Shown in pieces: positions 1-42,313 of a stretch of 64,000 nucleotides of DNA. The stretch covers positions 1 through 64,000 of the forward strand of contig WIUZ02000007.1 of NCBI GenBank assembly GCA_015956445.1, given 5' to 3'. The position numbers and the translations under genes were made by a program. Under the pieces are notes generated by a model. That model did not search any database. It was not told the origin of the DNA and was given only the letters and a program-made list of their open reading frames with translations. Source of the DNA: Thelephora terrestris (Eukaryota; Basidiomycota; Agaricomycetes; Thelephorales; Thelephoraceae). Each line of letters begins with the position of its first letter. The stretch's first letter is position 1.

Positions 1-292
1 GTTGTCCAACAGCTGCAGGAATGCAGCCACAACAACAGTGGCGAGTACACTTTCCGTGAAATCGGATTTCCAAAGAAATTGATGATCTGCTCCAAGTAAG
101 AAGGGCGGAGTGGTGACTCCGGCGTCGAGGGCGGCGAATGGTCGGTAATACAGATGATGAGCTAATAGACCAGAGGTTCTATTAAGCTGTAAACTCCTTA
201 TGAGTTTATACTCCCAGATGGAGCATCGGGCGTCTGGGATGACTGGGCGTGGGACAGGACTAGTAGAACGGAAGGGGTTAGGGGCACTGAAC
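1..292 (-). CDS. Family Y ORF-a, N-terminal part (runs off the window)
   Basis: The reading frame starts at an ATG at 292 and stays open to the window edge, giving about 97 residues. It aligns closely with the 207-residue ORF of Y2 at 12745-13368: both share the block SIWEYKLIRSLQ/SVWEYKLIRSLQ and FLLGADHQFLW. Substitutions between the two copies are mostly silent or conservative, which suggests selection on the protein. I do not recognise the family. A TATATAAG box on the same strand lies at 445-452, about 155 bases upstream. The first part of the same region also shows an ORF in another frame (198-434), which is not conserved in Y2 and is ignored. Confidence 0.6.
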
Positions 293-444
293 ATACACTG
301 GCAGGAATATTCCTGCTTTGAAATGAGTCAGATAAGAGCAAGATGTGAGGAGAATTCCTCAGCTTACTTTGTTTATTGAGTAGTTTGGTAGGAGAGTACA
401 GAAGAGATTGAGAATGGGGAAAAGAAAGGAGCAAACACTCTTCC

Positions 445-452
445 TTATATAC
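445..452 (-). promoter_or_regulatory. TATA box of Y1 ORF-a
   Basis: TATATAAG on the minus strand. The same motif in the same context (GGGTATATAAGGAAGAGTG) is present in Y2 at 13522-13529, so it is conserved between diverged copies. Confidence 0.6.
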
Positions 453-614
453 CCAATCCTCTACAGGCCTAGTAATGATACAAATGAGTCAAACAAGAAT
501 CAACATGGTCTGTGTGTAGTTTAGGGCAGGGTAGATGAGTCAGAGAAGTGGGACTTAGAACGATTAGTGATGAGTGCGAATAGGGGAGCAATAGTGGATG
601 AGTCATTAGGAGTA

Positions 615-735
615 TAATAGGGGATTTCTCGCGTTTTGTGGCAGCAATAGAAGAGTGATGAGGATTTCCCATGATCGTTGGGGATTTTTCACGATCGATA
701 GGGATTTCTCCGGATTTGATGGGATCACGATTGGG
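615..735. repeat. Short GGGGATTTCTC-type repeats between the divergent Y1 genes
   Basis: Three to four imperfect copies of a roughly 20-base unit with the core GGGATTTCTC and a GATCG/GATTG flank. An equivalent cluster lies at 13680-13800 in Y2. The position between two divergent genes suggests a shared upstream control region; that role is inferred. Confidence 0.5.
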
Positions 736-926
736 GTTGAGGGTTCGTTTATCCTTTTTAGGAAGACAATGAACAATGATGCATAGTCATTACTCGTTTG
801 GGTTGCCCATTGATCCGGACATATTTAGGCTGTGGGTTGCCTTCGTCTTTTCTCCTCATCGCCTCTTTTCCACTCTCACCAATCTACGACAACTTCCTCC
901 CCTCTTACAAACAACCTTCTGACACT

Positions 927-1073
927 ATGTCTCTCAACGCTGCTGCCACCCCCTTTGTTTCTGTCTCCTACAAGGACGACACTCCTGCTAATATTGCCCA
1001 GGACAACCAGGTCGCTGTCGACTTCTTGACAGCTCACCACGCTCCCCCCCAGTTCTGGGATCAGGCTGGGTAC
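927..1073 (+). pseudogene. Family Y ORF-b, 5' piece (split by X2)
   Basis: The ATG at 927 opens a frame that matches the Y2 gene at 13987: DTPANIAQDNQVAVDFLTAH against DTPANIAHDNQVAVDFLTAH. The frame reaches ...WDQAGY at 1073, where X2 begins. Its continuation, EDPNRT..., is found at 10598, directly after the far end of X2 and one copy of the duplicated GGTAC. The gene is therefore an insertional pseudogene. Compared with Y2, the N-terminus also lacks about 20 residues. Confidence 0.75.
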
Positions 1074-1525
1074 TGTCAGGAACATGGTATTTTTAAACTT
1101 TTTATAACATGCTCTTTCTTCGAACTCTTCTTACCAATTCTTGTGTTTGAATGCTTCCCACTCCTTATCCTTCACACCAATCATTCAAAACACACACACG
1201 CGCGTACTATTCCCAGCAAATCCACAACGAGCTATATACAGTGCTATCATCGTCCCATCAGAAATCGACTCTATCTACGGCAGGCCTAAAGGTCATCAAT
1301 CGTCCATCCCGGAGATCGTAGTGCTGGCCCCTCCTTGCAAGGACCTCCCCGAACATGGCGTCACCATCTTTGGCACTCAGCTGAACGACTAGTTCAAGCC
1401 GATAGGAAGAGATGCCTTCGAGCGGACCGATCAGCCTCCCAGATGTCACCGAACTGCGGAATACCTGGTCCCACATCACCATCACCGGGTGACTGCTCGA
1501 CAGCACTATTGATGTAGTCGGCAAG
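1074..1525 (-). pseudogene. X2 gene, 3' exon and 3' end
   Basis: This is the last part of the X2 gene, on the minus strand, ending at about 1258, with 185 bases of 3' sequence to the element end. The segment is nearly identical to 5277-5728 of X1. Its frame encodes a block with GRLIGPLEGISSYRLELVVQ, shared with X1 and weakly with exon 6 of X3. X3 inserted at 1525/1526 and cut this exon off from the rest of the gene at 4463. Confidence 0.65.
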
Positions 1526-1997
1526 TGTCAGGGCCACTCTTCGCCCTTCAGGTACCAGTGCTGTTGGTGAGTCGCAACTCCAACCAACAAGAAACAATGG
1601 GGCAAAGGGGGAACGACTTCCCTATATCCACCCAAAGTCTACGTGGTCCAAAACGCGATGGACGAGCGTTCTCCGGTAGGTTGTCCGAATTCACAGCAGG
1701 AGTGCCGAGCCTCTATCAGGTAAATCCCTATCGTCTTCTGAGGGCAGATACAAGAGCCCGAGGATGGCGCCTCAAACTGATGACTTGATCCAAAGAGCAG
1801 TGCGGAACTTGATGTCGTGTCCGAGCTCGCTTCAAACACCGGTTAAGGATCGAGACTGAGTGAGAGAGGAGAGCGAATGGTTCAAGGAGTTACTCGATAA
1901 GCTCTTCAGTGGCCTACAGCAATTACACCGATGCTGCAAGGAGAAGAGGACTTCCCGAGATATCAAAGATGGGGAATCCTCAGCTACTCTACTGGTA

Positions 1998-2005
1998 CCT
2001 ATATA
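1998..2005 (-). promoter_or_regulatory. TATA-like box of X3, antisense to its gene
   Basis: TATATAGG on the minus strand in the leader of X3. X1 (8121-8128) and X2 (10140-10147) carry TATAAGTA at a comparable place, also antisense to the element gene. The shared placement suggests an LTR-like promoter facing the element end. Confidence 0.4.
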
Positions 2006-2456
2006 GGAGAGTGGCCGGGACATAGATAACCCTATCTAATAATAACTCGGAGCAAGGAAGGGCCGGGAGTAAGCATGAACAGTAAGCGGCCCGGAGTATC
2101 GAATTGAAACGATAAAGGAATGACTAATGAGTCAGGGTTCGTGAGAGAATAAGAAAGGGGTCATGACGTCGTGTGGGAAAGGAATGACAAAGGATAATAT
2201 CACATGCAAGGACGAACCAATGAGAGGACGACGCCTCAGCTCGTCCGATCGGGACAGCAAAAGACCGAGTGGGGCGTGAATGTTGAAGGCGAATGTATGA
2301 GGAGTCTGGACCGGTGAAACGATGGACCGATCCAATGGCGAATAGGGCGCGAGCGCTGTCGATGGTCGAATAAAGCGTAGCGCGAACCGGCCGTTGGATC
2401 CATCAAACTCCCTTCTTCCCAAATCAACAATCCCACCAACCAACTACTCATCCACT

Positions 2457-4206
2457 ATGCCTGTGATCTCTGATCGTGTCTTCCGTGCTGAGAACAGCAC
2501 CGCCACCATCGAGTCTGCGGACCCGCGCTCCGTGCAGAACAAGAGTTACTTCCTTCCGAACGCCAACGTGGCGTACCCCAGTTATCGCGAGGTGCGACGT
2601 CACGTGTCGCCGTTTGCTGGCAACAACTGACATCGCATCGTAGATCTTCGCGGTTGCCGACAAGGTGGATGCTCGACAACTGGAGGCAACGATCGCCAGG
2701 CCTCCCCACTACTTGACCATAGATGACGAGTTGTGGTATCACAACTTGATTGACCACAAGTTACAGGAGTCTATGCGCGGGGTCACGTTCGACACCGAGT
2801 TGCGTATGCCATGGGAGACTCCGGTGGCGTCATCGTTGTGGGGTCTTCTGAAGATGGGAATCTACGATCTGGGAAACGGCGAAGGAAGGTGGCCGGGGGC
2901 GACTCGTTCACAACATTATACAGCAGCCGTTGGTCACCGCCTTTGGTTCCTTTTGAGGACAGAACAGAAAGCGGTGAGTCGGTCTGTGCATCCCGCTTGT
3001 GGGATAACACTGACAGGCTTGTAGAATGAGCGGCTGAAGCGTGAAGTGAAGGAAGCGAAGGATGATGCCCGTAGGATGTACTCGGAAGCGTTGGACATGA
3101 AGAAGACGCTGCTCTTGATGAACGATACGCTCCGCGTTACGTTTGAGAGCGAGATGCTGGCGATGTGCGAAGAACACAACCGGTTGGTCGAGTCCTTGAA
3201 GGAACGGGACGACACCATTCAGCGAGACCTGATCGAGGTCGACCGACGGCTCAACCGTCATCGAAGGGCCTTGAATGAGTTGGACACCAAGGTCGGTGTG
3301 TCTTCCCCTGGTCTTGATCCGAGGGAGCTCATACCACTTCTAGGTTGACACGTTGGACGACGCCTTGCCGTTGCTGGGCACTCGGGTCGAATCGATGAGT
3401 GAGCGGTTGTGTCACTGCCGCACTCGTTCGGTAGCTGCGGTTCGCGACGAGTCCGAGGACGAGTCGATACCGGATCGGATGGCTTCTCCCATAGGTGGGA
3501 TGTCGGCTGACATATTTGACTTGTCTACTGACATCCTTTTTAGCTTCTGATGGGTCGTATCGCACACCTGCGCACACTGATGGCGGGGAGGAGGTCGTCC
3601 GCGAGACGTCCGAGGAGACGGCCGTGAATCCGGTTAGCAGTTCTCCCGAGTTGGAGTACGCGGGGGAGAACGAGGTGGCCGTTCCGATTCCGCCTCCGTC
3701 GATCTCGCCGGTGCGTGGGCAACGTTCTATCCGTGCTCGTCGTTGGGTTCCTTATCGTGGGGCACTTCGTCCAGCGCACCGCATGCGTCCCAGCAATCCC
3801 AACGTTGTCCGCCAGGGTGGAGACATTGAGTCCACCGTCCTATTCTGATGCGACGATGCTACAGTGTCGCGTGGATCGCGGCGAGCTGATTCCGGTGGAG
3901 TCCGTCGACGTGAACGGCTTAACCGACCTTACGCTCTTGTCGGTCCAGCGTGCAGCGGAGGCCGTTCGCCTGGTAGCTCAACTGACTGAGAGAGTGGAGG
4001 GTTGGTCAGTCCAGAGGACTCTGGATCAGACTATGGTCGATTCAGCGAGGAACCGCCTTCGCGCCGAGGTTCAGTTAGCCGTCGCTCATTGTCTGGAGGA
4101 AGCTCGGGTCGTCGAGATGGTCGACGAGGAAGTCGACGAGAATGCCTCGGAGGGGACGGAGGAGGAGGTTGCCAGTGCTGAGGAGTACTGGCAGACTAGG
4201 TCTTGA
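2457..4206 (+). CDS. Family X protein, 494 residues, six exons, apparently intact
   Basis: Exons can be placed at 2457-2591, 2644-2973, 3025-3291, 3344-3494, 3544-3803 and 3865-4206. All introns are 49-61 bases with GT...AG ends, and the joined frame is open to the stop at 4206. The exon 1/2 and 2/3 and 3/4 junctions fall at the same places as in X1, though the proteins have diverged. Exon 2 holds a block with IDDELWYHNLIDHK (X1: WDDELWVRTIIVEK). Exon 3 is rich in charged heptads and probably forms a coiled coil; exon 4 has a CxC (CHC; X1 has CNC). Exon 5 is Pro/Ser/acid rich and ends near RRWVP...PAHRM. No known enzyme motif was seen. This is the best candidate for a functional member of the family. 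Confidence 0.75.
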
Positions 4207-4462
4207 CGACTGGGGTTTGTACGCCTTAGTCCTCGTTCATAGAGTCCGGGCGGATTCAATTCCGTCGGTTTGGTAGCCTTGTATCTTCGCTGCGCGCCTG
4301 TGTGTAATATCATCAGTGTCCTTGTCTGTGTTCCTTGATGACGTGTGAGTCGTGATAAGGGAAATGATAAGATAGGAAAGGGGTATAGGTAAGGAAAGTG
4401 GGCGAAAGTTGGGTGTAAAAATGGTTCAAAAAGGGAATAAAATTCAGCACGCTGACAGCAAG

Positions 4463-5276
4463 CGACCCTCCATCTCCCTCGTCGGACCCCTGGGTGGGAT
4501 CCTGTCTTGCGAGACGAAGCTGGTGTCGGAGTTGGATCTCGGACTCGACCTGTCGGTAAGGACGGTGGACCCGATATCGGAATCCTCGCTCCTCACCTCG
4601 ACCAGACTGGTCACCATCCGACTTAACTGGTCGAGGGTAAGGATTAGCCGACGCGGTCATACGATGGGCAGGACGGCGTCGAGAGCGTTTGCAGCGTTGC
4701 CCCTTAGTCACCGGACGTACCTCGGCGACCCTCGGAGCATCTTCGGCTCGGTCAACCTCCATGACCTCATCCTCGATCTTCACCAACTGATGGATCAGCT
4801 GCAAGGCGCAGCGCCCACAGTTCTCCTTATCGGACGCGGCCAAAGTGGAAGCCGGAGCTGGAGTCGGAACGGGAACCGCGTTCTCGATCGGAGGTGTCGC
4901 ATAGGACGATGGGTTAGGAGATGGGAGTACCACCTCGTCGGCGTACTCCAACTCGAACGGAACCTCGGCTGTCCCCTGACCAACCAATTTGGGACCCTCT
5001 TTACAGTTACAGGTCTTGTCCTGCAAGGACTCGACCTGCGCTGTCAACACAGCCACCACGTTCTCAAGTTCTTCCGTCTAGAAGAAGTCTCTCAGTCATT
5101 GCATAAACCTGCAAAGGCTGAAAGAACCTTTTCATCCCTCCTGGCCAACGCCCCCTTGATGTTGTTGTCCCGAACCTTCAACCCGGCGATCAACTCCTGA
5201 TGGTTGGCGACCATTGCCTCCAACGCCTCGTTCGTTCCCTGCTGAAAGGCGGCCAAGGTCTCCTTCATCTGAAGAC
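4463..5276 (-). pseudogene. X2 gene, middle exons
   Basis: The minus-strand frame at 5059-4463 encodes the block VAVLTAQVESLQDKTCNCKE and a Pro-rich linker, nearly the same as X1 at 6324-5729. Upstream, 5276-5106 carries the second half of exon 3. The exon is cut at 5276 by X1 and continues at 8579. At 4463 the gene is cut by X3 and continues at 1525. Confidence 0.7.
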
Positions 5277-5459
5277 TGTCAGGAACATGGTATTTTTAAA
5301 CTTTTTATAACACGCTCTTTCTTCGAACTCTTCTTACCATTTCTTATGTTTGAATGCTTCACACTCCTTATCCGTCGCACCAATCATTCGAAACACACAC
5401 ACGCGCGTACTATTCCCAGCAAATCCACAACAAGCTATACTAGTGCTATCAACGTCCCA

Positions 5460-7199
5460 TCAAAAGTCAACTCTATCTACGGCAGGCCTGAAGGTCATCA
5501 ACTGTCCATCCCGGAGATCGTAGTGCTGGCCCCTCCTCGCAAGGACCTCCCCGAACATGGCGTCACCATCTTCGGCACTCAGCTGAACGACTAGTTCAAG
5601 CCGATAAGAAGAGATACCTTCGAGCGGACCGATCAGCCTCCCAGATGTCACCGAACTTTGGAACACCTGGTTCCACATCTCCATCACTGGGTGATTGCTC
5701 GACAGCACTATCGACGTAGTCGGCAAGCGACCCTCCGTCTCCCTCGTCGGACCCCTGGGTGGGATCCTGTCCTGCGAGTCGAAGCTGGTGGTGAAGCTGG
5801 ATCTCCGACTCGACCTGTCGGTAGGGACGGTTGACCCGGCAGCGGAACTCTCGTCCCCCATCGTGACCAGGCTGGTCACCATCCGACTCAACTGGACGCG
5901 GGTACGGGTAAGCCGAAGGAGCCATGCGATGAGCAGGACGGCGTCGAGAGCGTTTACAACGTTGCCCCTTAGTCACCGGACGTACCTCGGTGACCCTCGG
6001 AGCATCTTCAGCTCGGTCAACCTCCATGACCTCATCCTCGATCTTCACCAGCTGACGGATCGGCTGCAAGACGCAGCGCCCACAGTTCTCCTTGTCGGAA
6101 GCGGCCAAAGTAGAAGCCGGACCTGGAGTTGGCACGGGAACCGCGTTCTCGATCGGAGGTGTCGCATAGGACGATGGGTTAGGAAATGGGAGTACCACCT
6201 CGTCGGCATACTCCAACTCAAACGGAACATCGGCTGTCCCCTGACCAACCAACTTGGGACCCTCTTTACAGTTACAGGTCTTGTCCTGCAAGGACTCGAC
6301 CTGCGCTGTCAACACAGCCACCACGTTCTCGAGTTCTTCGGTCTAGAGGAAGTCTCTCAGTCATTGCATAAACCTGCAAAGGCTGAAGGAACCTTTTCAT
6401 CCCTCCTGGCCAACGCCCCCTTAATGTTGTTGTCCCGAACCTTCAACCCGGCGATCAACTCCTGATGGTTGGCGACCATTGCCTCCAATGCCTCGTTCGT
6501 TCCCTGTTGGAAGGCTGCCAAGGTCTCCTTCATCTGAAGACCCGCCGCTGACAAACGAAGGACGTCTGCCTTCGCTTCCTTTACCTCCCGCTCCAATCGT
6601 TCAACCTAGGCAGTCTGATTAGTCGAGAGTCATACTCGAATATTCAGACAGAAAACCTACCCGGCTTTCTCCCTCCCGAACGAGCGACCACAAAAGGCTA
6701 GTGGAAGCGGTAGCATGGCGGACGGCCCGAGGAACAGTCGCTCTGTGCTCCAACAGGTCCTGATCGTAGATTCCCCTCTGCAGGGTGTACCAGAGCTCCT
6801 TCTTGATCGGATGCTCCAACTCTCCGAACCTACCCCTCATCTGGAAGGCCACCTTCTCCACAATTATCGTACGGACCCAGAGCTCGTCATCCCAGGTCAA
6901 CCCCACCAAATGAGGGATCGTCTCCCTGAAACGTTCGGCGTCCACTTCTGTGACGACCTCCAAGATCTAGAAGCCGTTAGCTGGACATCAACGCCCAAAA
7001 GAACGTAACCTCTACCTAGAGGAAGGCGTTAGTGCTAGCACACAAAAGCTCTAGGTCTCCCCCATACCTGGTCATCAGTGGTATAGGGAGTCCCCGCCAC
7101 ACAGGCGTAGGTCTTGCGAGCGGCGGCACGACGGTCGATACGGGAGATGGTGGAGATGCCATTGGCGACTTTGTAGGTATGGTTGTTGGGGAAGGACAT
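5460..7199 (-). CDS. Family X protein in X1
   Basis: Exon 1 is 7199-7068, exon 2 6966-6661, exon 3 6605-6393, and exon 4 starts at 6342; introns are 101, 55 and 50 bases. Exon 1 begins MSFPNNHTYKVANG. Exon 2 has LTWDDELWVRTII, matching the X3 exon 2 block. Exon 3 is a likely coiled coil, and exon 4 has the CNC motif and a Pro-rich linker. The frame from exon 4 stays open to 5596, while the conserved C-terminal block (GRLIGPLEGISSYRLELVVQ) lies in another frame ending at 5460. A last intron between about 5890 and 5720 would join them as in X3, but I could not fix its borders. No catalytic motif was recognised. Confidence 0.6.
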
Positions 7200-8120
7200 G
7201 TTGTGGTAGGATGATGGGGAAGTTGTTGGTGTTGCTGATCAAGGATGGCTCCAAGAAGACGTCCTTCTTATAGCCTAGATTGGTGATCCTTCACGTGACC
7301 TACCTCGACGAACCTCATTGGTCCGGGTCACATCAACTTCCGCCCCTGTACCATCATCGTTGGCTTACTACATCAAGCTGACACCTCAGCCCGCGGGATG
7401 GCCTTGGAAGAACTTCGTTCCGGAATGCCTAGAACGCGCGCGCACTAAAAATAGGTCTCAAGACCCTGATGACCCCTTTATGACATCACGAACCCCTTTT
7501 ACGACCCCTAATGACTTTACGATTACGATCAACCCTGGACCCTGATCACACACGTGGACAGTCACATCACAGTCTCCTAACCGGAGGAAGGGATCGCCGT
7601 TATTCAGAAGGAGTGCCTTAGACTCCTTTTGTTTAGCCCAGCGAATGTGGAGTAGCCGTTAGCGTGAAACGCCGGCGAATCTGTAATCCCTTATGTCCCA
7701 TGAGTCTAGGCCCGTGCTCCTCATGTTCGGACGCAAGATAAGGTTTCCACTAGTCCATGATGCTGTTACCGCCTACAGAGAACAAGGGATGCTGCATGGT
7801 CTCTATCTTTGGCCTCTCCAACAGAAGCATCCAAGAAGATTCTCACCTAGCCCTTGGGTGTGATCCCCAGGTACGAACTTTCATGACCCCATGCCCCTCT
7901 TTCTTTTAGGACTAGTGTTATCTTTACCCCTATGTTTCATGCGGACATTCCTTATCTTTTATGCAATCCTTCACACGCTAGTAAGGCCCTTTGTCCTTTA
8001 TTCTCCCATGCGTCACCTTTGTTCGCTTCCCTTACTTAGCATTCTCACACTCCTTATCTCCCTTTGTTCTGGACTTGATAAGGGTATATTAGGGTATTGA
8101 CGTCATGGCCACTCCTTTAG

Positions 8121-8128
8121 TATAAGTA
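8121..8128 (+). promoter_or_regulatory. TATA box of X1, antisense to its gene
   Basis: TATAAGTA lies 445 bases before the right end of X1, and is repeated in X2 at 10140-10147. The spacing from TATA box to the CA terminus resembles the R-U5 part of an LTR; this reading is inferred. Confidence 0.45.
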
Positions 8129-8578
8129 GCAACTGTGGCTGTATCGTAGTACCTTAGTTTTGTTACCTCAGGAAATCCTCTGCCCTTCTCAGCCCAGTTG
8201 CAGTTAAGGCCAAGTCAGAGTTTCTTGTTTGATCCAAGACATCCCTATCTGCTCTCCCTCCCGCTCTGCGCGTCAACTGCGCCTCGTAACTATAGACTCC
8301 CAGCAGTCATATTAGAACACCTCGAGCGTCCAGTCGATCAACTGGTGGAGTCATCAATCCTGCTGTAGGGATCAACCCTTGCTTGTTAAACCGAACGAAG
8401 TACGGTTTAGGTTGGGTTTCTCTTTAGGATTTCGACCTGACTTGCAGTGACCTCAGACAACCTACCGGAAGAATAGAGACGTGATCGTTCTCTCACAAGC
8501 TAGTTGGACTAGTGAGTACTCTGCGGAGTCGGCTCAGTGCACTGGTAGTAGTTGGGGTAGAGTGGCCCTGACAAAGAC

Positions 8579-9218
8579 CCTCCGCTGACAAATGAAGGAC
8601 GTCTGCCTTCGCCTCCTTCACCTCCCGCTCCAATTGTTCAACCTAGGCAGTTTGATTAGTCGAGAGTCATACTCGAATATTCAAACGGAAAACCTACTCG
8701 GCTTTCCCCTTCCCGAACGAGCGACCACAAAAGACTAGTGGAAGCGGTGGCATGGCGGACGGCCCAAGGAACAGTCGCTCCATGCTCCAATAGGTCCTGA
8801 TTGTAGATTCCCCTCTGCAGGGTGTACCAGAGCTCCTTTTTGATCGGATGCTCCAGCTCCCCGAACCTACCCCTCATCTGGAAGGCCACCTTCTCTGCAA
8901 TTATGGTACGGACCCAGAGCTCGTCGTCCCAAGTCAACCCCATCAAATGTGGGATCGTCTCCCTGAGACGTTCGGCGTCCACTTCCGTGACGACCTCCAA
9001 GATCTAGAAGCTGTTAGTTTGACATCAACGCCTAAAGAACCGACCTCTACCTAGCAAACACACGAAGCTCTAGGTCTCCCCCATACCTGGTCATCCGTGG
9101 TATAGGGAGTCCCCGCCACAGTAGCGTAGGTCTTGCGGGCAGCGGCACGACGGTCGATGCGGGAGATGGTGGAGATGCCGTTGGCGACTTTGTAGGTATG
9201 ATTGTTGGGGAAGGACAT
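8579..9218 (-). pseudogene. X2 gene, 5' exons
   Basis: Exon 1 is 9218-9087 and exon 2 9003-8698, both still open and nearly identical to X1. Exon 3 starts at 8642 and is cut at 8578 by X1; it continues at 5276. The exon sizes (132 and 306 bases) equal those in X1 exactly. Confidence 0.7.
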
Positions 9219-10597
9219 GTTTTGGTAAGATGATGGGGAAGTTGCTGGTGTTGCTGATCAAGGATGGCTCCAAGAAGACATCCTTCTTATAGCCTAGATT
9301 GGTGATCCTTCACGTGACCTACCTCGACGAACCTCATTGGTCCGGGTCACATCAACTTCCGCCCCTGTACCATCATCGTTGGCTTACTACATCAAGCTGA
9401 CACCTCAGCCCGCGGGATGGCCTTGGAAGAACTTCGTTCCGGAATGCCTAGAACGCGCGCGCACTAAAAATAGGTCTCAAGACCCTGATGACCCCTTTAT
9501 GACATCACGAACCCCTTTTACGACCCCTAATGACTTTACGATTACGATCAACCCTGGACCCTGATCACACACGTGGACAGTCACATCACAGTCTCCTAAC
9601 CGGAGGAAGGGATCGCCGTTATTCAGAAGGAGTGCCTTAGACTCCTTTTGTTTAGCCCAGCGAATGTGGAGTAGCTGTTAGCGTGAAACACCGGCGAATC
9701 TGTAATCCCTCATGTCCCATGAGTCTAGGCTCGACCTCCTCATGTTTGGACGCACGTTGAGGTTGCCACTAGTCTGTGATGCTGTTATCGTCTACAGACA
9801 ACAAGGGATGCTGCATGGTCTCTATCTTTGGCCTCTCCAACAGAAGCATCCAAGAAGATTCTCACCTAGCCCTTGGGTGTGATCCCCAGGTACGAACTTT
9901 CATGACCCCATGCCCCTCTTTCTTTTAGGACTAGTGTTATCTTTACCCCTATGTTTCATGCGGACATTCCTTATCTTTTATGCAATCCTTCACACGCTAG
10001 TAAGGCCCTTTGTCCTTTATTCTCCCATGCGTCACCTTTGTTCGCTTCCCTTACTTAGCATTCTCACACTCCTTATCTCCCTTTGTTCTGGACTTGATAA
10101 GGGTATATTAGGGTATTGACGTCATGGCCACTCCTTTAGTATAAGTAGCAACTGTGGCTGTATCGTAGTACCTTAGTTTTGTTACCTCAGGAAATCCTCT
10201 GCCCTTCTCAGCCCAGTTGCAGTTAAGGCCAAGTCAGAGTTTCTTGTTTGATCCAAGACATCCCCATCTGCTCTCCCTCCCGCTCTGCGCGTCAACTGCG
10301 CCTCGTAACTATAGAACCTTCGTGTTCATATTAGAACACCTCGAGCGTCCAGTCGATCAACTGGTGGAGTCATCAATCCTGTTGTAGGGATAAACCCTTA
10401 AGTGTTAAACCGAACGAAGTACGGTTTAGGTTGGGTTTCTCTTTAGGATTTCGACCTGACTTGCAGTGACCTCAGACAACCTACCGGAAGAATAGAGACG
10501 TGATCGTTCTCTCACAAGCTAGTTGGACTAGTGAGTACTCTGCGGAGTCGGCTCAGTGCACTGGTAGTTGTTGGGGTAGAGTGGCCCTGACAGGTAC

Positions 10598-11277
10598 GAA
10601 GACCCCAACCGTACCGTCATGCGTGCTCCTGGTGTCCCTCCCCTGTTGGATGCTATGGAGCGAGAGAGAGAGTCGTATCAGGAAACTGGAGAGTCGACTC
10701 GATGTGATGTATGTTGTTGTCAACAGTCTTAACGAAGACTTTTCTCACTTTGCCTTGGAACATTGGAAACCTTTCCAGGAGTCTCTCTTCCAGTACTTCG
10801 GCCATCAGTGCCATGGAGCATACTGTACCGATCCTGCTCCTCACTCCCCTGTTGTCCCTCCGACACCGCCAGGATCAAGGGGTTCCTCTTCCTCAATCCC
10901 CTCCTTGGAGTCCTGCTCCTCAGATGGTGGAGAGGACCTCAAAGAAGTCGTGCAAGAGTCCGATGACTCATTCTGGACAGCGGTGTCGCCCGTCGAGCAA
11001 GAGTCGCCAAGTTCGGATGCGGCTGAAGTTGGAAGTGGCCGATCTTCAGGAAAGGTATGGGTTCGATCTAGTTCGTGAAGGACTAGATTCAGTGAGGAGG
11101 GATATGTTCGATGGCTTGGAGCATGATGTTCTAGGATGCCAGGACTGCTGGGTAGATCCAGTTTCTCGGGATTACACTTATTGTCCTCAGTCAGTATATA
11201 ATCCTTTCCATTTCGCGCATCGTTGTCCAATAGATCAGGACTGCGTTTGTAAGGTTGATCCTTTCCTCCTTGTCTAG
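10598..11277 (+). pseudogene. Family Y ORF-b, 3' piece (after X2)
   Basis: The sequence resumes the frame broken at 1073 with EDPNRT, as in Y2. Around 10660-10670, in a run of GA repeats, two bases are missing relative to the Y2 reading, so the frame changes. From there the block MYVVVNSLNEDFSHFALEHW is shared with Y2 (16673). The conserved C-terminus (LGCQDCWVDPV...YCPQSVYNP) lies one frame further (+1) and ends at 11277; the same +1 step is present in Y2. The C-terminal pattern CxxC-x11-C-x11-HxC-x5-CxC looks metal-binding. The gene is broken by insertion and by the two-base loss. Confidence 0.65.
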
Positions 11278-11439
11278 TTCTTCCTCTAGTTTTCTTTGTA
11301 CTATTACTACAACTGCGAATAAGACCAATGTCTTGAATTGTTTGTGCGATCTTCCTCAATATGTCACGTGTTCGTGACAGGTGGTCTGTAAATAAAAGAA
11401 TCGTCGGAAGAACTGAAACTAGCGTCGGTTAATGAATTT

Positions 11440-11640
11440 GAATTTGAATGATCGGAACCAAATTTGAAATCGGAAAGATGAAATGAAACTGAGTTGGAAT
11501 CTAATGTGAGGTCGGAAAAACTGGAATTGGAGTTTGGAATGGAAACAGGATCAAAATCGGAATCGGAACTGGAGTGATAAACGGAATCGGAACTGGAATT
11601 ATGAACGGAATCGGAACTGGAATCTCACTGGGGGCAGGGG
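11440..11640. repeat. Degenerate minisatellite, GGAATCGGAACTGGA-like
   Basis: About ten imperfect units rich in GGAATCGGAA and GGAACTGGA. The clearest copies are at 11560-11625. No ORF. It lies just beyond the right end of Y1. Confidence 0.6.
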
Positions 11641-11647
11641 TTGGTTT

Positions 11648-11877
11648 ACTGAGTCAGTAAACTGTGAGTAAATCACAAGTAAATGGAAAAAGAACCTAGC
11701 AAAATACTTGCCTGGCAAGTGCAAAGCAAATTCACAATTTACTTACCTGCAATTTACTGGGTTCAGTATGTGCTCAGTATGTTTACAGTTTACTGGGTCA
11801 TGTGACCACAGTTTCTCCATTAGGTAAACCTTGGAAAAATTCACAATTTACTGGACAAATTTACCCACAATTTACTG
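11648..11877. repeat. AGTAAA-rich sequence, unpaired left extension of the palindrome
   Basis: The motifs TTTACTG and CAGTAAA recur here as in the palindrome, but no mirror copy is found to the right, where Y2 begins at 12725. The right-hand counterpart seems to be missing. Confidence 0.5.
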
Positions 11878-12725
11878 AGCCACCTACCCAATCAGTATGT
11901 TTTTAATTTGCTGGGTGATTTAATTGTGATTTACTGGACTCAGTAAACTGGAAAAAAACCAAACTGGTTTACTGACGACGTTTCTGATTGGTTAATTTTA
12001 AAAATAACCGAAAATTTACCTGGACGTGTCATTGTCAGTAAACTGCAAGTTTTCTTTCAGTAAATTGGAAATACATGTCAGGTAAACTGGGAAAACACGT
12101 GACAATTTGATTGTGGTTTACTGGACTCAGTAAATCAGAAAAAAAGCTAACCGGTTTACTGACGATGTACCTGATTGGCTAATTTGAAAAAAAACCCTGA
12201 AATTTTACCAGGACGTGTCTTTATCAGTAAACTGCAAGTTTTCTTTCAGTAAATCACAAGTACACGTAAAGTAAACCAGAAAACACGTGTACACTGTAAG
12301 TAAATTCAAAGTTTACATGTTTTCTGGTTTACTTTACATGTACTTGTGATTTACTGGAAGAAAACTTGCAGTTTACTGATAAAGACACGTCCTGGTAAAA
12401 TTTCGGGGTTTTTTTTCAAATTAGCCAATCAGGTACATCGTCAGTAAACCGGTTAGCTTTTTTTCTGATTTACTGAGTCCAGTAAACCACAATCAAATTG
12501 TCACGTGTTTTCCCAGTTTACCTGACATGTATTTCCAATTTACTGAAAGAAAACTTGCAGTTTACTGACAATGACACGTCCAGGTAAATTTTCGGTTATT
12601 TTTAAAATTAACCAATCAGAAACGTCGTCAGTAAACCAGTTTGGTTTTTTTCCAGTTTACTGAGTCCAGTAAATCACAATTAAATCACCCAGCAAACTAA
12701 AAACATACTGATTGGGTAGGTGGCT
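11878..12725. repeat. Near-perfect palindrome (about 409-base arms, 28-base loop)
   Basis: Left arm 11879-12287 pairs with right arm 12316-12724 without any visible gap; the first 90 bases from the outer ends show one mismatch. Each arm contains two related units of about 200 bases, each with GGTTTACTGAC, ATTGG, GACGTGTC and CAGTAAACTGCAAG. The arms would form a long hairpin. No ORF is present. The right arm stops exactly where Y2 begins. Confidence 0.85.
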
Positions 12726-12744
12726 GTCAGGGTTGTGGGCCTGC

Positions 12745-13368
12745 TTACTGTTTAGGGGATGCTAGAGGATTAGCGGATGGGTGAGGGGTGTCGGGTCGAG
12801 TTTTGAAGGGGGTTCCGGGTGTCGAGATAAGGGAAGGGGGGATATCAAGAGTGAGTGGGGCTTCGGATTGATAAGGGTGAAAGGGCGAATGATAGTCTTG
12901 ACAGAACTGGCTTAGTTGTTGAATGAAGGGATTGAAATCTTGATCACTAAGACATTCGAAGCTGACGAGATATTCTAGAACTGAATAAGGTAATTCAGTT
13001 GGAATGTCCCACCACAAGATGATGATAGCAGGGGAGTGGGTGTGAACGTTAGTGGTAAGGTGAATGCGAGGGTTGGGAAAGTAGAAGGCTGGACTTATAC
13101 TGAAGTAGACGGTCGCTAGGACGCTCTCAGTAGTGTCTGAGTTCCAAAGGAACTGATGATCGGCTCCTAACAAGAAAGGGGGAGTAGTGACTCCGGAGTC
13201 GAGCGCTGCAAAGGGGCGATAGTAAGGGTAATGAGTAAGTAAACCCGCGGTTCGGTTTACTTGAAGACTCCTGATGAGTTTATACTCCCAGACAGATCTT
13301 CTGACGTCGGGTATAATCGGACGTTGAATGGGGCTGGTAGAGGGGAAGGGATTCGGGGCTCTGAACAT
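12745..13368 (-). CDS. Family Y ORF-a, 207 residues
   Basis: This single open frame has an ATG at 13368 and a stop 20 bases from the element end. The protein is not recognised. It has aromatic/Pro-rich stretches (AIIILWWDIPTELPYSVLEY) and a Pro/Ser/Thr-rich C-terminus. The N-terminal 97 residues are well conserved in Y1 (1-292). A TATATAAG box lies at 13522-13529 on the same strand. It could be a gag-like structural protein of a retroelement, but no zinc knuckle or capsid motif was seen. Confidence 0.65.
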   Translation of the reverse strand: MFRAPNPFPSTSPIQRPIIPDVRRSVWEYKLIRSLQVNRTAGLLTHYPYYRPFAALDSGVTTPPFLLGADHQFLWNSDTTESVLATVYFSISPAFYFPNPRIHLTTNVHTHSPAIIILWWDIPTELPYSVLEYLVSFECLSDQDFNPFIQQLSQFCQDYHSPFHPYQSEAPLTLDIPPSLISTPGTPFKTRPDTPHPSANPLASPKQ

Positions 13369-13521
13369 ACACTTAGCAGGAGAATTCCTGCTTGATTGAG
13401 TCAGAAAAGAAATAAGACGTGAGGAGAATTCCTCAGCTTACTTTTGTTTATTGAGAGGTTTGTTTGGTAGAGGAGTACAGAAGAGATTGAGAATGGAGAA
13501 AAGAAGGAGCGAACACTCTTC

Positions 13522-13529
13522 CTTATATA
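13522..13529 (-). promoter_or_regulatory. TATA box of Y2 ORF-a
   Basis: TATATAAG on the minus strand, about 155 bases upstream of the ORF-a start, conserved with Y1 at 445-452. Confidence 0.6.
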
Positions 13530-13679
13530 CCCAATCTTCTACAGGAGTCATTATTCTACAACGAGCCAAACAGGAATCAACATGGTCTGTGCGTAGTTTA
13601 GGGCAGGGTAAATGAGTCAGGGGAGTGGGACTTTAGCACAACGAGTGATGAATATGAAATAGGGGAATGATAGCGAAGG

Positions 13680-13800
13680 AGTTATGGGGATTTCTCTTGT
13701 TTCATGGTGGTAATAGAAGACTGATGGGGATTTCCCAAGATCAATGGGGATTTCTCATGATCGATGGGGATTTCTCAGGATTGATGGGATTGTGATTGGG
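13680..13800. repeat. GGGGATTTCTC tandem repeats in the Y2 divergent promoter
   Basis: Four units resembling ATGGGGATTTCTCATGATCG follow one another. An equivalent cluster is in Y1 at 615-735. Confidence 0.6.
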
Positions 13801-13986
13801 GCTGAGGGTTCGTTTACCCGTATTGGGACATTAATGAGTGATGGTTCGTTGTTTTCCCTTTTCGGCCTCCCATTTACTTGATCTTTATATAACCTAGGGG
13901 AGTTATTGGTTCTTTTCTCCCATCGTCTCTTTTCCTTTCCTCACCAATACCACTATCCCCTCTTCTCTCAAACTACCTTTGTTACT

Positions 13987-14303
13987 ATGTCTGCCTACAC
14001 CGCTAACAGCGCTTTGCTCAACGCCGCCGCCACCCCTTTCGACCTCTCTCCGTCCTTCGAGACGGACACTCCTTTCGTCGTGGAGCAACATTTGTACGAC
14101 ACTCCCGCCAACATCGCTCATGACAATCAAGTGGCGGTAGACTTCTTGACCGCTCACAACGCTCCCGCCGAGTTCTGGGAACAAGCTGGGTATGAAGATC
14201 CCAACAGGACTCGAAGGTGGGCCCCTGGAGTTACTCCCATGCAGGACGCGATGGAGCAAGAGAGGGAGGATAGAATTTTGAAGTTGGAGAAGAGGATGGA
14301 CGT
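13987..14303 (+). pseudogene. Family Y ORF-b of Y2, 5' piece (split by Z1)
   Basis: The frame starts MSAYTANSALLNAAATPF and includes DTPANIAHDNQVAVDFLTAH, FWEQAGYEDPNRT and a heptad-like segment EREDRILKLEKRMDV. It is cut at 14303 by Z1. The continuation, MYVVVNSLNEDF, starts at 16673 after the second ACGT, and the codons join in frame (GAC GTC ATG). The Z1 bases add a short false tail that ends at 14361. Confidence 0.75.
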
Positions 14304-14354
14304 TGTCGGACATGAGAACAACCATGTCATTATTTATGATAATTCACCACAGCA

Positions 14355-14405
14355 AGATTAGATTAGATAAGATAACAGTCTTATCAGATAAGATTAGATT
14401 AGATA
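14355..14405. repeat. GATTAGATAAG repeats in Z1
   Basis: Repeats of AGATTAGATTAGATAAG occur twice, separated by a CAGTCTTATCAGATAAG stretch; part is an inverted pair. GATA-type sites are possible regulator targets, which is inferred. Confidence 0.45.
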
Positions 14406-15224
14406 AGGACAAGAAACTCATGGAAAGTTACAGAAAGTTCAGGAACATCCTGGAACTTGCCGGAATGTTCTAGAAGGTGATGGAACGTCACACCCCATGT
14501 GACACCGGTCACGCTTTTGTGACATTTTGTCACACTTGTGACGTCTGTCACTCCATTAATTACCATAGAATACAGTAGAAGGCCATAGAACGTTCTAGAA
14601 TAATCTCACATGAAAAAGTATATAAAGAACTCACCCCCAGTTCTAAGGAAAGGCAACTCACCCATAACCTTTTACCCCTCTCTCTCTCTACCCAACAGCT
14701 GTTGGCCACTGGCCAGTAGTTGTCCCCTCTATCCCCTCTTCTCTCTATAACTCACCCTCTTTTACTCTACCCCTTTTCACCAAGACCCCTACTTTGCCTC
14801 ACCTCCTTAGGCCTGAGTGGTTGAGTGATTTTCAGTAATCACATACCATTTTGAGCCCCACCTCTGTGTGAATAAGTTCTAAGTTTGGACTTCTGAATAA
14901 GCTTAGTACACTTGACTCTGTGACGTAGCAATATCCTTATCTCTGTTAGTGCTGAAGGCAGACCCTTCAGGCAGAGAGTATTCTACCTCAGACTAGTGAC
15001 TGACTAGGTGACAGACAGATTTAGTAATAGTACCACATTGGTATCCGACGTATCAGTATCTCAGACATATCAAGAAGTTTATCTTATCAAGACAGGTTCT
15101 CAAGTTTCAGCAGTATCAAGTTATCAGACGTATCTCAGCAGCATTTGGACGTACCTCAGCAGTATATTGACAGATCATCAAAACTACTCAGACATATCAG
15201 CACAGCCTCAGAAGTATTAGCACA

Positions 15225-15320
15225 GCCACCCCCTTAATACAGCCACAGCACAGCCACTTACACAGCCACAGTGCACAGCATTCTACACAGCCTTCTTCAC
15301 AGCCTCATATACAGCCTCGA
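15225..15320. repeat. ACAGCC repeat tract in Z1
   Basis: About nine copies of CACAGCC at irregular spacing. No reading frame is kept through the tract. Confidence 0.5.
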
Positions 15321-16108
15321 TTGTATCAGTTTCACACATCATTATCTCCATTTCCGATCATCAGCGTAGATCAGGAACTCCATTCTTATCAAGATCAGCA
15401 ACCCCCTTTACATTCTTACTAGGTGTTTGGACCAGGGAATATACGTGCAGTAGTGATAAAGGTTACTGAACCCCTCTGAACACATCTGAAGGACCTACAA
15501 CCTCCTTCAGCGAACTCATCAGGACAAGGAGCCGGTGTCGTGACCGTATTTCGGACACTATCCTGAATTGCGACCTTCTCTCGACTATCGACAACCGCTG
15601 TGCGAGGTCTGGATGACTTCCCTCAGCATTCTCAACTGTCCCGACGAGGATTCGCCTGTCCCTTCACTTCGCCACATGTCCCTCTCTCCCTATTCTCCCT
15701 CGCGACCTCCCGATGTTTTCCCTTTCGACCTGCGACTTAGACCTGCGACCTGCGCCCTTCGACCTTAGACCTGCGACCTGCGTTCCCCAGTAGATAGTTT
15801 CCCTCAGACTCTTCTTCCCTCACACCTTGTCCCGATTACGTCCCGACCATTTCCCAACTCTCCACCACATCTTGTTTCTTTAGTTTACATTTCCCTATCT
15901 CCATTCCCTGCGACCCGATCACGTCTCGATCGATTGCTCCGCTCTCGACTCTAGGCCTCCCTCTGGTTCACTTTCCAACCACATTCCCTTCCTTCGCTGT
16001 TTCCTTCGATCCCTCGCCTTCCCTATGTCATAGACGCGTCATTAGGTCTTTTGACATCATTTTGGTTCGTTCCCTTTGGTTCCTTCGTTCTCAGAGTCCC
16101 CAGTAGTG

Positions 16109-16117
16109 TATATAAAG
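16109..16117 (+). promoter_or_regulatory. TATA box of Z1
   Basis: TATATAAAG lies about 550 bases from the right end of Z1 and is followed by a CT-rich stretch, as expected for an LTR promoter. Confidence 0.45.
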
Positions 16118-16671
16118 ACTCCTGTACTCGATAGACCAATCAATCACTCAGCAGTGTTCCCTCTCTCTCTCTTCTGAGGCCTAGCAGCGTTGCTACGGTC
16201 CTCCCTTCGGTTCCCTCGTCGTCTTGCCCTCGTTCTTGTCGTCCTTCTGGTCTCTCGTGTCCCGCTTTTCAGCCTTGTTGTCCCGACGTTTCCCGACGTT
16301 TCCCTTAGTTAGCTATCAATAGTTTCGTTCTTTGGTTTCCCTGTTATCTTCCACTTCGTTCCCCCGATTTGCATCGCGACTTTCCCTCTCATCGTTTATT
16401 CCCTTCCCGCAGATCCCCTAGAGGCTCGCGCCTCTAAACCGAGGACCCGACCTTCTAACTGCCATCTCTGCCCTCTCGGACTCCGAAGGCTTTGTGGTCA
16501 GTTCACCGGAAAGTACGAAACCCCGCCCACCCTGTGGAGTTGATAGTCGGGATAACTGACTTCTCAACCAGCCTACTTAGTTGTTAACGCTTAGCTTCTG
16601 AGTAAACCAAGAAGGACTAGTAAGAGTTCTTATAGACCTCTTCACTACAACCCCAGCTAACTCGACAACGT

Positions 16672-17249
16672 CATGTATGTTGTTGTCAACAGTCTTAATG
16701 AAGACTTCTCTCACTTTGCTTTGGAACATTGGAAACCTTTTCAGGAATCTCTCCTCAGGTACTTCGGTCATCGATGCCATGGAGCGTACTGCACCGACGC
16801 AGCTCCTCACTCCCCCATCGTCCCTCCGCCGTCTCCAGGATCAGGGAGTTCCTCTTCCTCAATCCCCTCCTTGGAGTCCTGTTCTGAGTCGTCAGTTGGT
16901 GGAAAGGACCCAGAAGAAGAGTCGCAAGAGTCCGATGACTCGTACTGGACAACGTTGTCGTCCCTCCGACAAGTCACGTCAGGTTCGGATGAAATTAAAG
17001 GTGGAGGTAGCGGGTCTCCAGGACTGTTATGGGTTCGCATTAGTGAGTGCGGCGCTGACGGACGTGAAGCGGGAGATGCACGATAGTTTGTTCCATGATG
17101 TGTTGGGATGTAGGGAGTGTTGGCAGGATCCAGTAACTCGAGTGTACTCGTACTGCCCTCAGAGCGTGTACAACCCTCATCATTTTGCTCATTGTTGCCC
17201 TCTTTCTCAGGACTGTCCTTGTGATGTAGATCCCTTTGTTCTTGTTTAG
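16672..17249 (+). pseudogene. Family Y ORF-b of Y2, 3' piece
   Basis: The frame from MYVVVNSLNEDFSHFALEHW stays open to 17086 with a Ser/acid-rich linker (GSSSSSIPSLESC). The conserved C-terminus (RQVRMKLKVEVAGL, then LGCRECWQDPV...YCPQSVYNP) is in the +1 frame and ends at 17249. The same relation holds in Y1. No intron of the right length and with GT...AG ends is shared by both copies near the step. A +1 ribosomal shift, a very short intron or an old shared mutation are all possible. The C-terminal CxxC-x11-C-x11-HxC-x5-CxC pattern is kept in both. Confidence 0.6.
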
Positions 17250-17354
17250 GTTTCCGATACTTATTAGTTACCTTTGTACTTTTACTACTGCGAATAAGAC
17301 CAATGTCTTGAATTATTTGTGCGATTTTAACCACTATGTCATGTGTTCGTGACA

Positions 17355-39974: not shown

Positions 39975-42313
39975 TTTCACGCCCTCAATTTTCTGTTTCA
40001 CCAGGACACGGACACGAGCTTGTACTTGACGCCTTTCACGAAGTCACGGCGCATCGTTCCCTTGCTTCCCCTCCTTATCCCCCTGATTGTGTAACACCCT
40101 TGTACATGTAGAATTATCAACCAACCTCCATCCTCTCCACTTGCTTTCTCCACCCCATTCCCCACATCCTGAGAGCCTTTAATCCGCTCTCTTTCATCCC
40201 ACTTATGCGGACTTTTTCGATCCGGTACAACCCGCGTATATGCACAACGGTTGGGTCTCCGAAACAATTATGCAACAGTTCACCCTGGCTTCATCCACCT
40301 CCCTTTCTATACTTTTCCATCTGTCGATTAATTCTTTGCATTCAGCATCTTTTGGTCTCGCTACTCGCAAGTTTTTCAGTTACCTGCCCATCTCTCCTCG
40401 GTTGTTTCATCCCATTTTCCCCTCCTTTACCCTCCCCTTCACCGATATCTTACTTGAGGACCGAAAATATGTACCACTACCTCAACTCTCAAGTACTGTA
40501 CTTCATGGAATTCAATCTTAATGGTCCCCTCGCTTCTGGTGTTTTTTTGAGTCTGCGCTCTGATGATCGGTAAGACGATGCCCTTTATCAGCTCTACCCT
40601 GCCGCCATTACACCCAACACGCGTCAACCACCATAATAATTCACAAGAGGAATCTCATCGATTGGAGCAAAAAGTGCCTCGAGGTATTCATGGTATACAT
40701 CTGATCTGGGTCCTGTCATCAGCATGCGCCGCAGAACCAATATCATGAACCTCATCCCTGCAGCTGGAGACGAGCAAACACCAGAAAAGACGGCGATAAT
40801 CAACCAGCTGGGACACTCAAAAATTCCCGAAACGTCGTGCGCGTGCCTCCAGAAATCCTTGGTTGTATCTTCTGAATGACCGTCGAGCCCGTGCTTTGAC
40901 GGGATGGCGACTCTTGCTCTCTCTTGTTTCGCTAAAATACGCGACTTCCTCGTCTATCACCACAGGTACGAAGTCGCCTGTTGCACCCAGTGCCATGGAG
41001 ATCCTGGGGTGATGTTTGGAAGGCCGGAAGCGACGCTAGACCAAGCTTGTACTACGCTACGCTCGCCATGAATACTCCCCACGTCACGATCTCGTGCTGG
41101 CAGAGGAGGATCCATCTTGCTTCAATGCTTGCAAATTGGATGAATTACAAGAGTTCTTTCTTCACTTTGTGGGGCCGCTGATTCTCACGCGCGCTTCCAG
41201 CCAAATCGGTTACAGCCGTTTGCATGTCAATAGCTCGCTTTTGAAAAAAACGCACTCACTTTTTTTCGTTCACGGACGGAGCTTGGCGCTGCGAAAAGCA
41301 CAGCATCGGTACAAGTAGTTTGCACATAATTTCAATTTGAAAACCCAATCGGCCACGACCCTTTGTCACGGCTCTGCTCTAGCTAAGCCTGCACAGTTAC
41401 AAAGTAACTCCCCTGCTCATGAACTATACAAGCCGAGTCCCATGAGATTCTGTGTACAAGGTGGATGGGGATGAAGTCGTTGTAGATCTAAGATTTATTT
41501 GCACCCAGGGGGGGCGCGGCAACGCACCGAGCGACACGCGACTGTCACCCCGGTGGGTCTGAACTATACTTCCGGGGTCCTCGATCTGGGTGATTTCTCC
41601 CAAAACACTTAATCATCGACTCCTATGGGGCGGGCGCATTTTCTTGCAAACCACTCGCACACAAAGCTGTAGCCATTACTACATGGAACAAAATATCCCT
41701 CTGAGCCAACAGAAAATGAAGGACGGATCTTCCAATAAAGTTAGAATACGCATAACCTAAAATGGATGGGTAACCTCCCCCTGCCAACTTCAGTGATCGC
41801 GTATGGTCCCCGTTGCTCATTAGCCGAGCTCATATTACGTCTGTATTTGTGTTTGTTTGGCGTTTACTACCATATACGGGTGCGCTTAAGGGGGTTCACC
41901 CAAATTTGGGTAGTGAACGATACTTCCGGGGTCCTATCGGGGCTTTGATAGTTAGGTGTCCCTGGGTGCGCTGCCGCGCCCCCCCTGTTTGCACCCGCGC
42001 GCGCTACCTGCCACACACAGGCTGTGCTAAGCTCCTTCCGTGAACAAACAAAAGGGAGTGTGTTTTTCTCGAAAACGAGCTATCGACATGCAAACAGCTG
42101 TAAAGCCGAGATCAGTGGCCCGGCGGGCTATACTAGTTACCTCAAATCTACTCGGGATGTCAAAGGCCATCGCCTCCAGTCGCCCCTCACAGTATACCGC
42201 ACTGCGACTTCTTCATGCCCCCCCAACTTCAACAATCATGCTGGGAAATATACAACGAGTAGGTTCTTGTATCGTGCCCATCCAACCTGGAGTCAACTTG
42301 CTATCTCAGGGAA
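39975..42313. other. Gene-poor region with repeats
   Basis: After the kinase 3' end the sequence is low in coding signs. From about 40770 it matches 45735 onward, the start of a roughly 5 kb tandem duplication. An inverted-repeat structure lies at 41210-42115. ORFs here are short and unsupported. Confidence 0.5.
41210..42115. repeat. Inverted-repeat structure (two nested arm pairs)
   Basis: 41215-41310 is a diverged reverse copy of 42015-42115 (both contain TGCATGTC/GACATGCAAAC and the CACGGACGGAGCTTGG/CCAAGCTCCGTCC type block). A second pair, 41500-41530 and 41960-41995, shares CAGGGGGGGCGCGGCA and its reverse. TACTTCCGGGGTCCT occurs directly at 41567 and 41926. It may be a nested MITE in a decayed foldback element. 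Target duplications were not seen. Confidence 0.5.

Follow-up and report, generated by a model that had tools for sequence, protein, structure and literature searches.

Probable solo long terminal repeats of two sister chromoviruses in Thelephora terrestris, with a predicted antisense gene under selection in the U3 region

The 64,000-bp window analyzed here, from the basidiomycete Thelephora terrestris (GCA_015956445.1, contig WIUZ02000007.1), contains three nested repeat units, which we call X1, X2 and X3. These units are very probably solo long terminal repeats (LTRs) of two sister Ty3/Gypsy chromovirus families, whose U3 region holds a predicted intron-containing gene antisense to gag-pol and maintained by selection. 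The first-pass annotation had taken them for mobile elements of one family. The insertions are real, but the units correspond to the LTRs of gag-pol retrotransposons, standing here alone, and both the class of element and the antisense gene had been missed. The genome searched has 40.6 Mb in 60 contigs, the window being C58:1-64000.

Complete elements with X units as LTRs are found elsewhere in this genome. Two X1 copies in the same direction, C12:3230124-3233424 and C12:3239442-3242742, lie 6.0 kb apart, and the internal region of 6017 bp between them contains a gag-like frame of 628 amino acids (aa) and a pol frame of 1272 aa. Pfam matches were RVP_2, RVT_1, RNaseH, H2C2, rve, SH3_Tf2-1 and Chromo in pol, and a CCHC zinc knuckle in Gag. 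The order protease, reverse transcriptase, RNase H, integrase and chromodomain found in this C12 element is a feature of Ty3/Gypsy chromoviruses. Eight internal regions of the X1 type are present at 7 loci, one of them a tandem with three LTRs and two internal regions, and 3 of the X3 type are flanked by X3 copies as LTRs. The corresponding pol matches comprise 8 of the X1 type at 99-100% aa identity and 3 of the X3 type at 62%. A purine-rich tract, AGGAAGAGGATAA, resembling a polypurine tract (PPT), precedes the 3' LTR of the X1-type elements. The 11 direct LTR pairs, starting with TG and ending with CA (two of them share the middle LTR of the tandem), differ by 0, 1 or 2 substitutions each, and the outer 5-mers are identical at all 10 element loci (GTGCA, CCATC, TAATC, CATCA, ATCCT, CTGCC, ATCAC, AACTG, AAAAC and ATGTC). 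The complete elements are therefore young, and the recent activity of the family, already claimed from the window, is borne out. Both chromoviruses have unusually long LTRs (3.3 and 2.9 kb) and integrate with a 5-bp target duplication.

In the window, X2 (1074-10592, about 3.28 kb) is of the X1 type and lies on the plus strand, taking the gag-pol direction as sense. It has TGTCAGG...CCTGACA ends, is split by X3 and X1, and is flanked by GGTAC (1069-1073 and 10593-10597). X3 (1526-4457, 2932 bp, minus strand) lies within X2, reversed relative to it, between two copies of GCAAG (1521-1525 and 4458-4462), and is the LTR of the 3 sister-family elements mentioned above. X1 (5277-8573, 3297 bp, plus strand), also within X2, is flanked by AAGAC (5272-5276 and 8574-8578) and is of the same sequence kind as the LTRs of the 8 X1-type internal regions. 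The coordinates, the TGTCAG...CTGACA ends and the three duplications given by the first-pass annotation are all exact in the sequence. The alignment of X1 with the X2 pieces that it had proposed gives 93.1% identity for 1074-1525, 92.4% for 4458-5276 and 95.1% for 8574-10592, and the pieces (452+814+2014) add up to 3280 bp, in agreement with the 3297 bp of X1. Since the inner 5-mers GCAAG and AAGAC occur only once each in X1, X1 shows what X2 looked like, at both places, before X3 and X1 were inserted, and so serves as the empty site of both. For X2 itself, the empty site is an uninterrupted paralogue at 13136-14268, where both flanks align and join at 14189-14192. The three separate insertions, their nesting order and the 5-bp target duplications are upheld. 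We suggest that a repeat unit, Y, would have come first, followed by X2 into a gene of Y, and then by X3 and X1, independently, into X2.

Two other claims were correct only in part. X1 and X2 do belong to one family, but X3 is from a sister family and lies in the opposite orientation. The possibility that X3 belongs to the same DNA family was rejected, because blastn between X3 and X1 yields only seven short weak stretches, the longest of 86 bp at 66%, and no full-length alignment; what they have in common are the ends, those few stretches and the antisense protein described below. X2 does break a reading frame (QAGY/EDPNRT), but this frame belongs to the multi-copy unit Y and not to a single-copy host gene.

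X units without an internal region are far more abundant than complete elements. With 40 of 638 candidates scored, at least 66 genome matches of X1 were obtained (27 full-length), and the 36 X1-type copies examined derive from these, some of them joining two matches and shorter fragments being left out. An exact 5-bp duplication surrounds a single LTR in 28 of the 36. The 8 misses include both LTRs of the C12 element, whose outer flanks match; among the 34 single copies, counting X1 of the window, the duplication is thus exact in 28. For X3, at least 34 further full-span matches of 2917-2941 bp were found. An exact 20-mer from the start of the X1-type LTR occurs 401 times in the genome, and an exact 15-mer at the 3' ends, common to both families, 578 times; the reversed controls gave 0 in both cases. 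With 401 LTR starts against 8 internal regions, most X1-type LTRs must therefore be solo or truncated. The window units fit what is expected of a solo LTR: a single LTR, with no internal region and one target duplication, of the same kind as the LTRs of complete elements. Recombination between the two LTRs would remove gag-pol and leave one LTR between the duplications, and this is most likely how the solo copies were made. Since the X units are the LTRs of gag-pol elements, each scar in the window most likely represents an insertion followed by recombination, rather than the arrival of a 3.3-kb transposon.

It could be argued that the X units are mobile themselves, either as non-autonomous LTR units or as a DNA transposon of the terminal inverted repeat (TIR) type, with the gag-pol integrase acting in trans and the antisense gene helping. 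The extreme ratio of 401 exact starts to 8 internal regions would be accounted for in this way. The short inverted ends are perfect, and the unit Y has similar ends, a 5-bp duplication in its one complete copy and two divergent genes, with no gag-pol tied to it. However, X copies make ordinary LTR pairs with a primer-binding site (PBS) and a PPT. Long identical LTRs should also be prone to recombination, and every complete element is very young, as expected if they collapse quickly. The agreement of the inverted ends is limited to 7 bp, and blastn at E 1e-4 gave no longer inverted match. We consider this explanation improbable. Its TIR transposon version was rejected, given the 7-bp inverted ends, the LTR pairs and the fact that the X proteins searched yielded neither a transposase nor any Pfam match above cut-off.

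The LTRs themselves point to the way in which these retrotransposons would be primed. The internal region following the LTR begins with GAGTAACAAAACTACCAGCC in the X1 type and with TTATATCAAAGATACCAGCC in the X3 type. Starting 2 nt past the LTR, 12 nt (X1) or 11 nt (X3) are complementary to a segment of the LTR, located at position 2883 of 3301 in the X1 type and 2488 of 2932 in the X3 type, about 420-445 nt before the LTR end, and in both families followed by CTCRGGAAR. The sequences of the PBS and of the LTR segment differ between the two types with the complementarity kept, at matching places, and 48 of 49 copies carry the X1-type 12-mer unchanged. In the window, this 12-mer is found in X1 at 8155-8166 (plus strand), the putative 5' end of R, and in X2 at 10174-10185 (plus strand), and the 11-mer complementary to the X3-type PBS is found at the matching LTR position in X3 (1960-1970, minus strand). 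This covarying complementarity suggests that both families are probably self-primed and that their RNA would begin at this position. Reverse transcription would then be of the Tf1 kind, with the RNA starting at the LTR segment and a U3 of about 2.9 kb in X1 and 2.5 kb in X3. No match was found in the window with Rfam, nor any tRNA in a tRNA search, and a promoter and terminator scan of X1 gave nothing useful, being of a bacterial type unsuited to a eukaryote.

Within U3, a gene is predicted that reads against gag-pol. For X1 it was modeled by combining the frame with the codon-position bias of substitutions on a tree of 49 X1-type LTRs. The X1 gene occupies 5460-7199 on the minus strand (exons 7199-7068, 7015-7010, 6966-6661, 6605-6393, 6342-5893, 5847-5716 and 5666-5460), with short GT-AG introns of 43-55 nt and a product of about 470 aa. 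Most substitutions in the main exons are third-position changes, with the phase changing at the introns. A first model has 468 codons including the stop and is open in 36 of the 49 copies, with one intron lacking a GT start in some of them. The best refined model has 482 codons including the stop and is open in 38, that is, in all 15 LTRs of complete elements and in 23 of 34 single copies. The homologue in X3 lies at 2457-3848 on the plus strand (exons 2457-2591, 2644-2973, 3025-3291, 3344-3494 and 3544-3848). The X1 and X3 proteins share 35-39% aa identity in two exons and 39-40% over an exon of 102 aa, while the flanking LTR DNA is largely unalignable. In X2, the copy of the gene, located by position, is broken by both inner insertions. 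No Pfam family scores above cut-off for the antisense protein, and all that PDB yielded were weak matches to coiled coils (E 0.16 or worse). A search of IMG/VR with an antisense exon gave 3 pattern matches, none confirmed as a relative. Our best guess is that this is a nuclear or regulatory accessory protein, with a conserved region and a probable coiled coil but no known domain.

Purifying selection on the gene has been strong throughout the separation of the element lineages. Among 7 X1-type elements (21 pairs, first model), the ratio of nonsynonymous to synonymous divergence (dN/dS) is 0.033-0.082, with a synonymous divergence (dS) of 0.12-0.28; among 4 X3-type LTRs (6 pairs), it is 0.033-0.055, with a dS of 0.19-0.46. 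In six comparisons, 5-11 aa changes were seen versus an average of 37-57 for an equal number of random changes. The constraint on the antisense gene is similar to that on gag, since the same three pairs of complete X3-type elements give a dN/dS of 0.040-0.045 for the former and 0.048-0.091 for the latter (gag dS 0.09-0.15). Because the gene was held by purifying selection during the divergence of the lineages, the element itself is the most likely beneficiary of its protein. As an antisense gene it would not have its introns spliced out of the genomic RNA, and being inside the LTR, it is present in two copies per complete element and in one, at first intact, per solo LTR.

A different explanation for this conservation would make the antisense gene a host gene family, spread via the LTRs and now retained for the host. 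The 102-aa exon has no stop in 148 of 150 copies of one family (the best-scoring of 602 candidates) and in 134 of 150 of the other (the best-scoring of 569), although this share is skewed towards good copies because the best-scoring candidates were taken. On the other hand, every broken copy is a single LTR (11 of 34), with none among the 15 LTRs of complete elements. The ratio of changes at first and second codon positions to those at third positions, expected to be about 2 without selection, is 0.43 on the terminal branches of single LTRs versus 0.25 on internal branches; the terminal branches include the history before insertion. C>T and G>A changes make up 1464 of the 2906 terminal changes, 728 of them at CpG. 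This relaxed constraint and the excess of C>T and G>A changes enriched at CpG are consistent with selection inside the element lineages and decay after insertion. Selection on solo copies as host genes was not retained, as the branch data do not support it, and we regard a host gene family as very unlikely. That the apparent gene does not code for a protein and that its codon-like periodicity has another origin is hardly credible: the gene is predicted from sequence and has neither a Pfam family above cut-off nor a convincing PDB relative, but third-position changes dominate the main exons, the phase shifts at GT-AG introns, and the two families agree, with an aa alignment that spans LTRs aligning poorly in DNA.

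Several observations weigh against solo LTRs of two chromoviruses with a selected antisense gene. The gene, its introns and its transcript are predictions from the sequence; in the X1 model the last two introns and the gene end are uncertain, and so is the 3' end of the X3 gene, as none of the three complete-element LTRs compared has the final stop seen in the window. Among the single X1-type copies, 6 of 34 have no matching duplication. Some complete elements are damaged: about 0.9 kb of the internal region is gone from the X1-type element C4, 2 of 11 pol genes have an in-frame stop, and the X3-type gag of C5 has a frame-shifting insertion. The noncoding DNA of the LTR (its first 1300 nt in gene orientation) also differs by only 1.2-3.5% in 11 of the 21 X1-type pairs, versus 12-28% at synonymous sites, and by 1.8-4.6% versus 19-46% in all 6 X3-type pairs, being about five- to twentyfold less diverged than the synonymous sites in these pairs. 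No simple clock accounts for this gap; strong constraint on the control region, exchange between copies or a force acting on synonymous sites could be involved. In the remaining 10 X1-type pairs (C12b or C23 against the rest), the noncoding DNA differs by 11-12%, and in C12a/C12b, the sole such pair scanned, the differences are concentrated at about 600-1050. At these positions in gene orientation, C12b and C23 carry one of two strongly differing versions of a promoter-side segment among otherwise similar elements, which suggests an exchange of LTR modules.

The unit Y, into which X2 was inserted, resembles the X units, with like ends and a 5-bp duplication in one complete copy. The left copy in the window (1-11379, plus strand) is split by X2 at 1073/10593, its left border lying beyond the contig start. 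The right copy (12725-17354, plus strand), which provides the empty site for X2, has the ends TGTCAGGG...GTGACA and is interrupted near 14298-16670. Its left border is recurrent, as 35 of the 40 copies listed (itself left out) begin at 12722-12728, within 3 bp of 12725. Two divergent genes are present: gene A (12745-13368, minus strand, 207 aa) and gene B, of which the 5' part (13987-14310, plus strand) is a paralogue of the gene broken by X2. The broken gene has at least 150 matches in the genome among 329 candidates, as a member of the Y family. The only other Y copy with both flanks comparable is the complete one at L008:239-5779, which lies between two GGGGA 5-mers and is interrupted by an X1-type LTR; the flanks of the right copy in the window do not match. 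Gene A differs from that of L008 mostly at third positions.

X elements occur repeatedly in Y. X1-type or Y sequence is found in the 250-bp flank, on at least one side, at 11 of 41 insertion sites (34 single copies and 7 element loci), which would fit chromodomain elements nesting in repeats. Gene B of the right Y copy contains an element of about 1.4 kb (14298-15535 and 16506-16670, interrupted by 15536-16505), with inverted ends around GACGTTGTCG and at least 39 further copies at 92-97%. There is a foldback at 11878-12725, with arms of 411 nt that are 99% complementary and 26 nt apart. For sequence related to it, at 11626-11877, 41 further matches were found, which often form inverted pairs with a spacing of about 1 kb. 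Farther along the window, 42154-43783 and 47338-49038 are direct repeats of about 1.6 kb that have diverged to 77-80% identity and carry a related frame.

LTRs are commonly regarded as regulatory DNA free of genes. In the X LTR there seems to be a gene with introns, selected about as strongly as gag, which survives the loss of the rest of the element, and hundreds of copies of an element gene could persist in this way. The role of antisense retrotransposon genes also becomes testable, in a family that was active recently and whose LTR pairs are complete and nearly identical, and the gene sets of related genomes may list such solo LTRs as host gene families. More tentatively, and with more doubt than conviction, we propose that in this lineage an essential antisense gene was relocated to the LTR, so that recombination leaves working cassettes behind. 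Hundreds of solo LTRs might then supply the protein or antisense RNA in trans, helping or limiting new copies, with Y as a third such unit, carrying two divergent genes, and a whole class of gene-bearing LTRs to be expected.

Among known systems, Tf1 and Tf2 share with the X-type element a pol with a chromodomain, and SH3_Tf2-1 is among the Pfam matches of the latter. Tf1 has a PBS complementary to its RNA 5' end, which allows self-priming, and generates a 5-bp duplication. Its LTR has about 0.35 kb, against 2.9-3.3 kb in the X families, and to our knowledge it has no antisense gene. HBZ of human T-cell leukemia virus type 1 (HTLV-1) is a spliced antisense accessory gene, with its coding part largely outside the LTR. 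Its likeness to the X gene would lie in its being an accessory gene that a retroelement carries in antisense and that is driven from the side of the LTR; an antisense promoter in the 3' LTR of HTLV is mentioned in PMC7264820. An antisense gene inside an LTR was not found in the titles, abstracts and passages of the open-access literature searched, nor is one described in the available passages of PMC7264820, PMC5408684, PMC8365987 and PMC9674265. Boty-like elements of Botrytis cinerea carry the antisense gene brtn (PMC7264820, PMC8365987) and are, like the X elements, fungal gypsy elements with an antisense gene. From the description available, to which our comparison is confined, they differ in being grouped with antisense extra open reading frames located between pol and the 3' LTR (PMC7264820). 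A further parallel in these passages is given by the antisense extra reading frames of plant Ty3/Gypsy elements (aORF-3R), as in Grande (gene23), RIRE2, Retand and PvRetro13, which are also conserved genes antisense to gag-pol, mostly with no clear database similarity and with a presumed regulatory or nuclear role (PMC7264820). The plant genes are internal, between pol and the 3' LTR, whereas the X gene lies in U3 inside the LTR, is thereby duplicated, has predicted introns and is retained in solo LTRs. Genes of this antisense kind are already known from the stretch between pol and the 3' LTR and, as far as the searched literature goes, the position inside the LTR is the new aspect.

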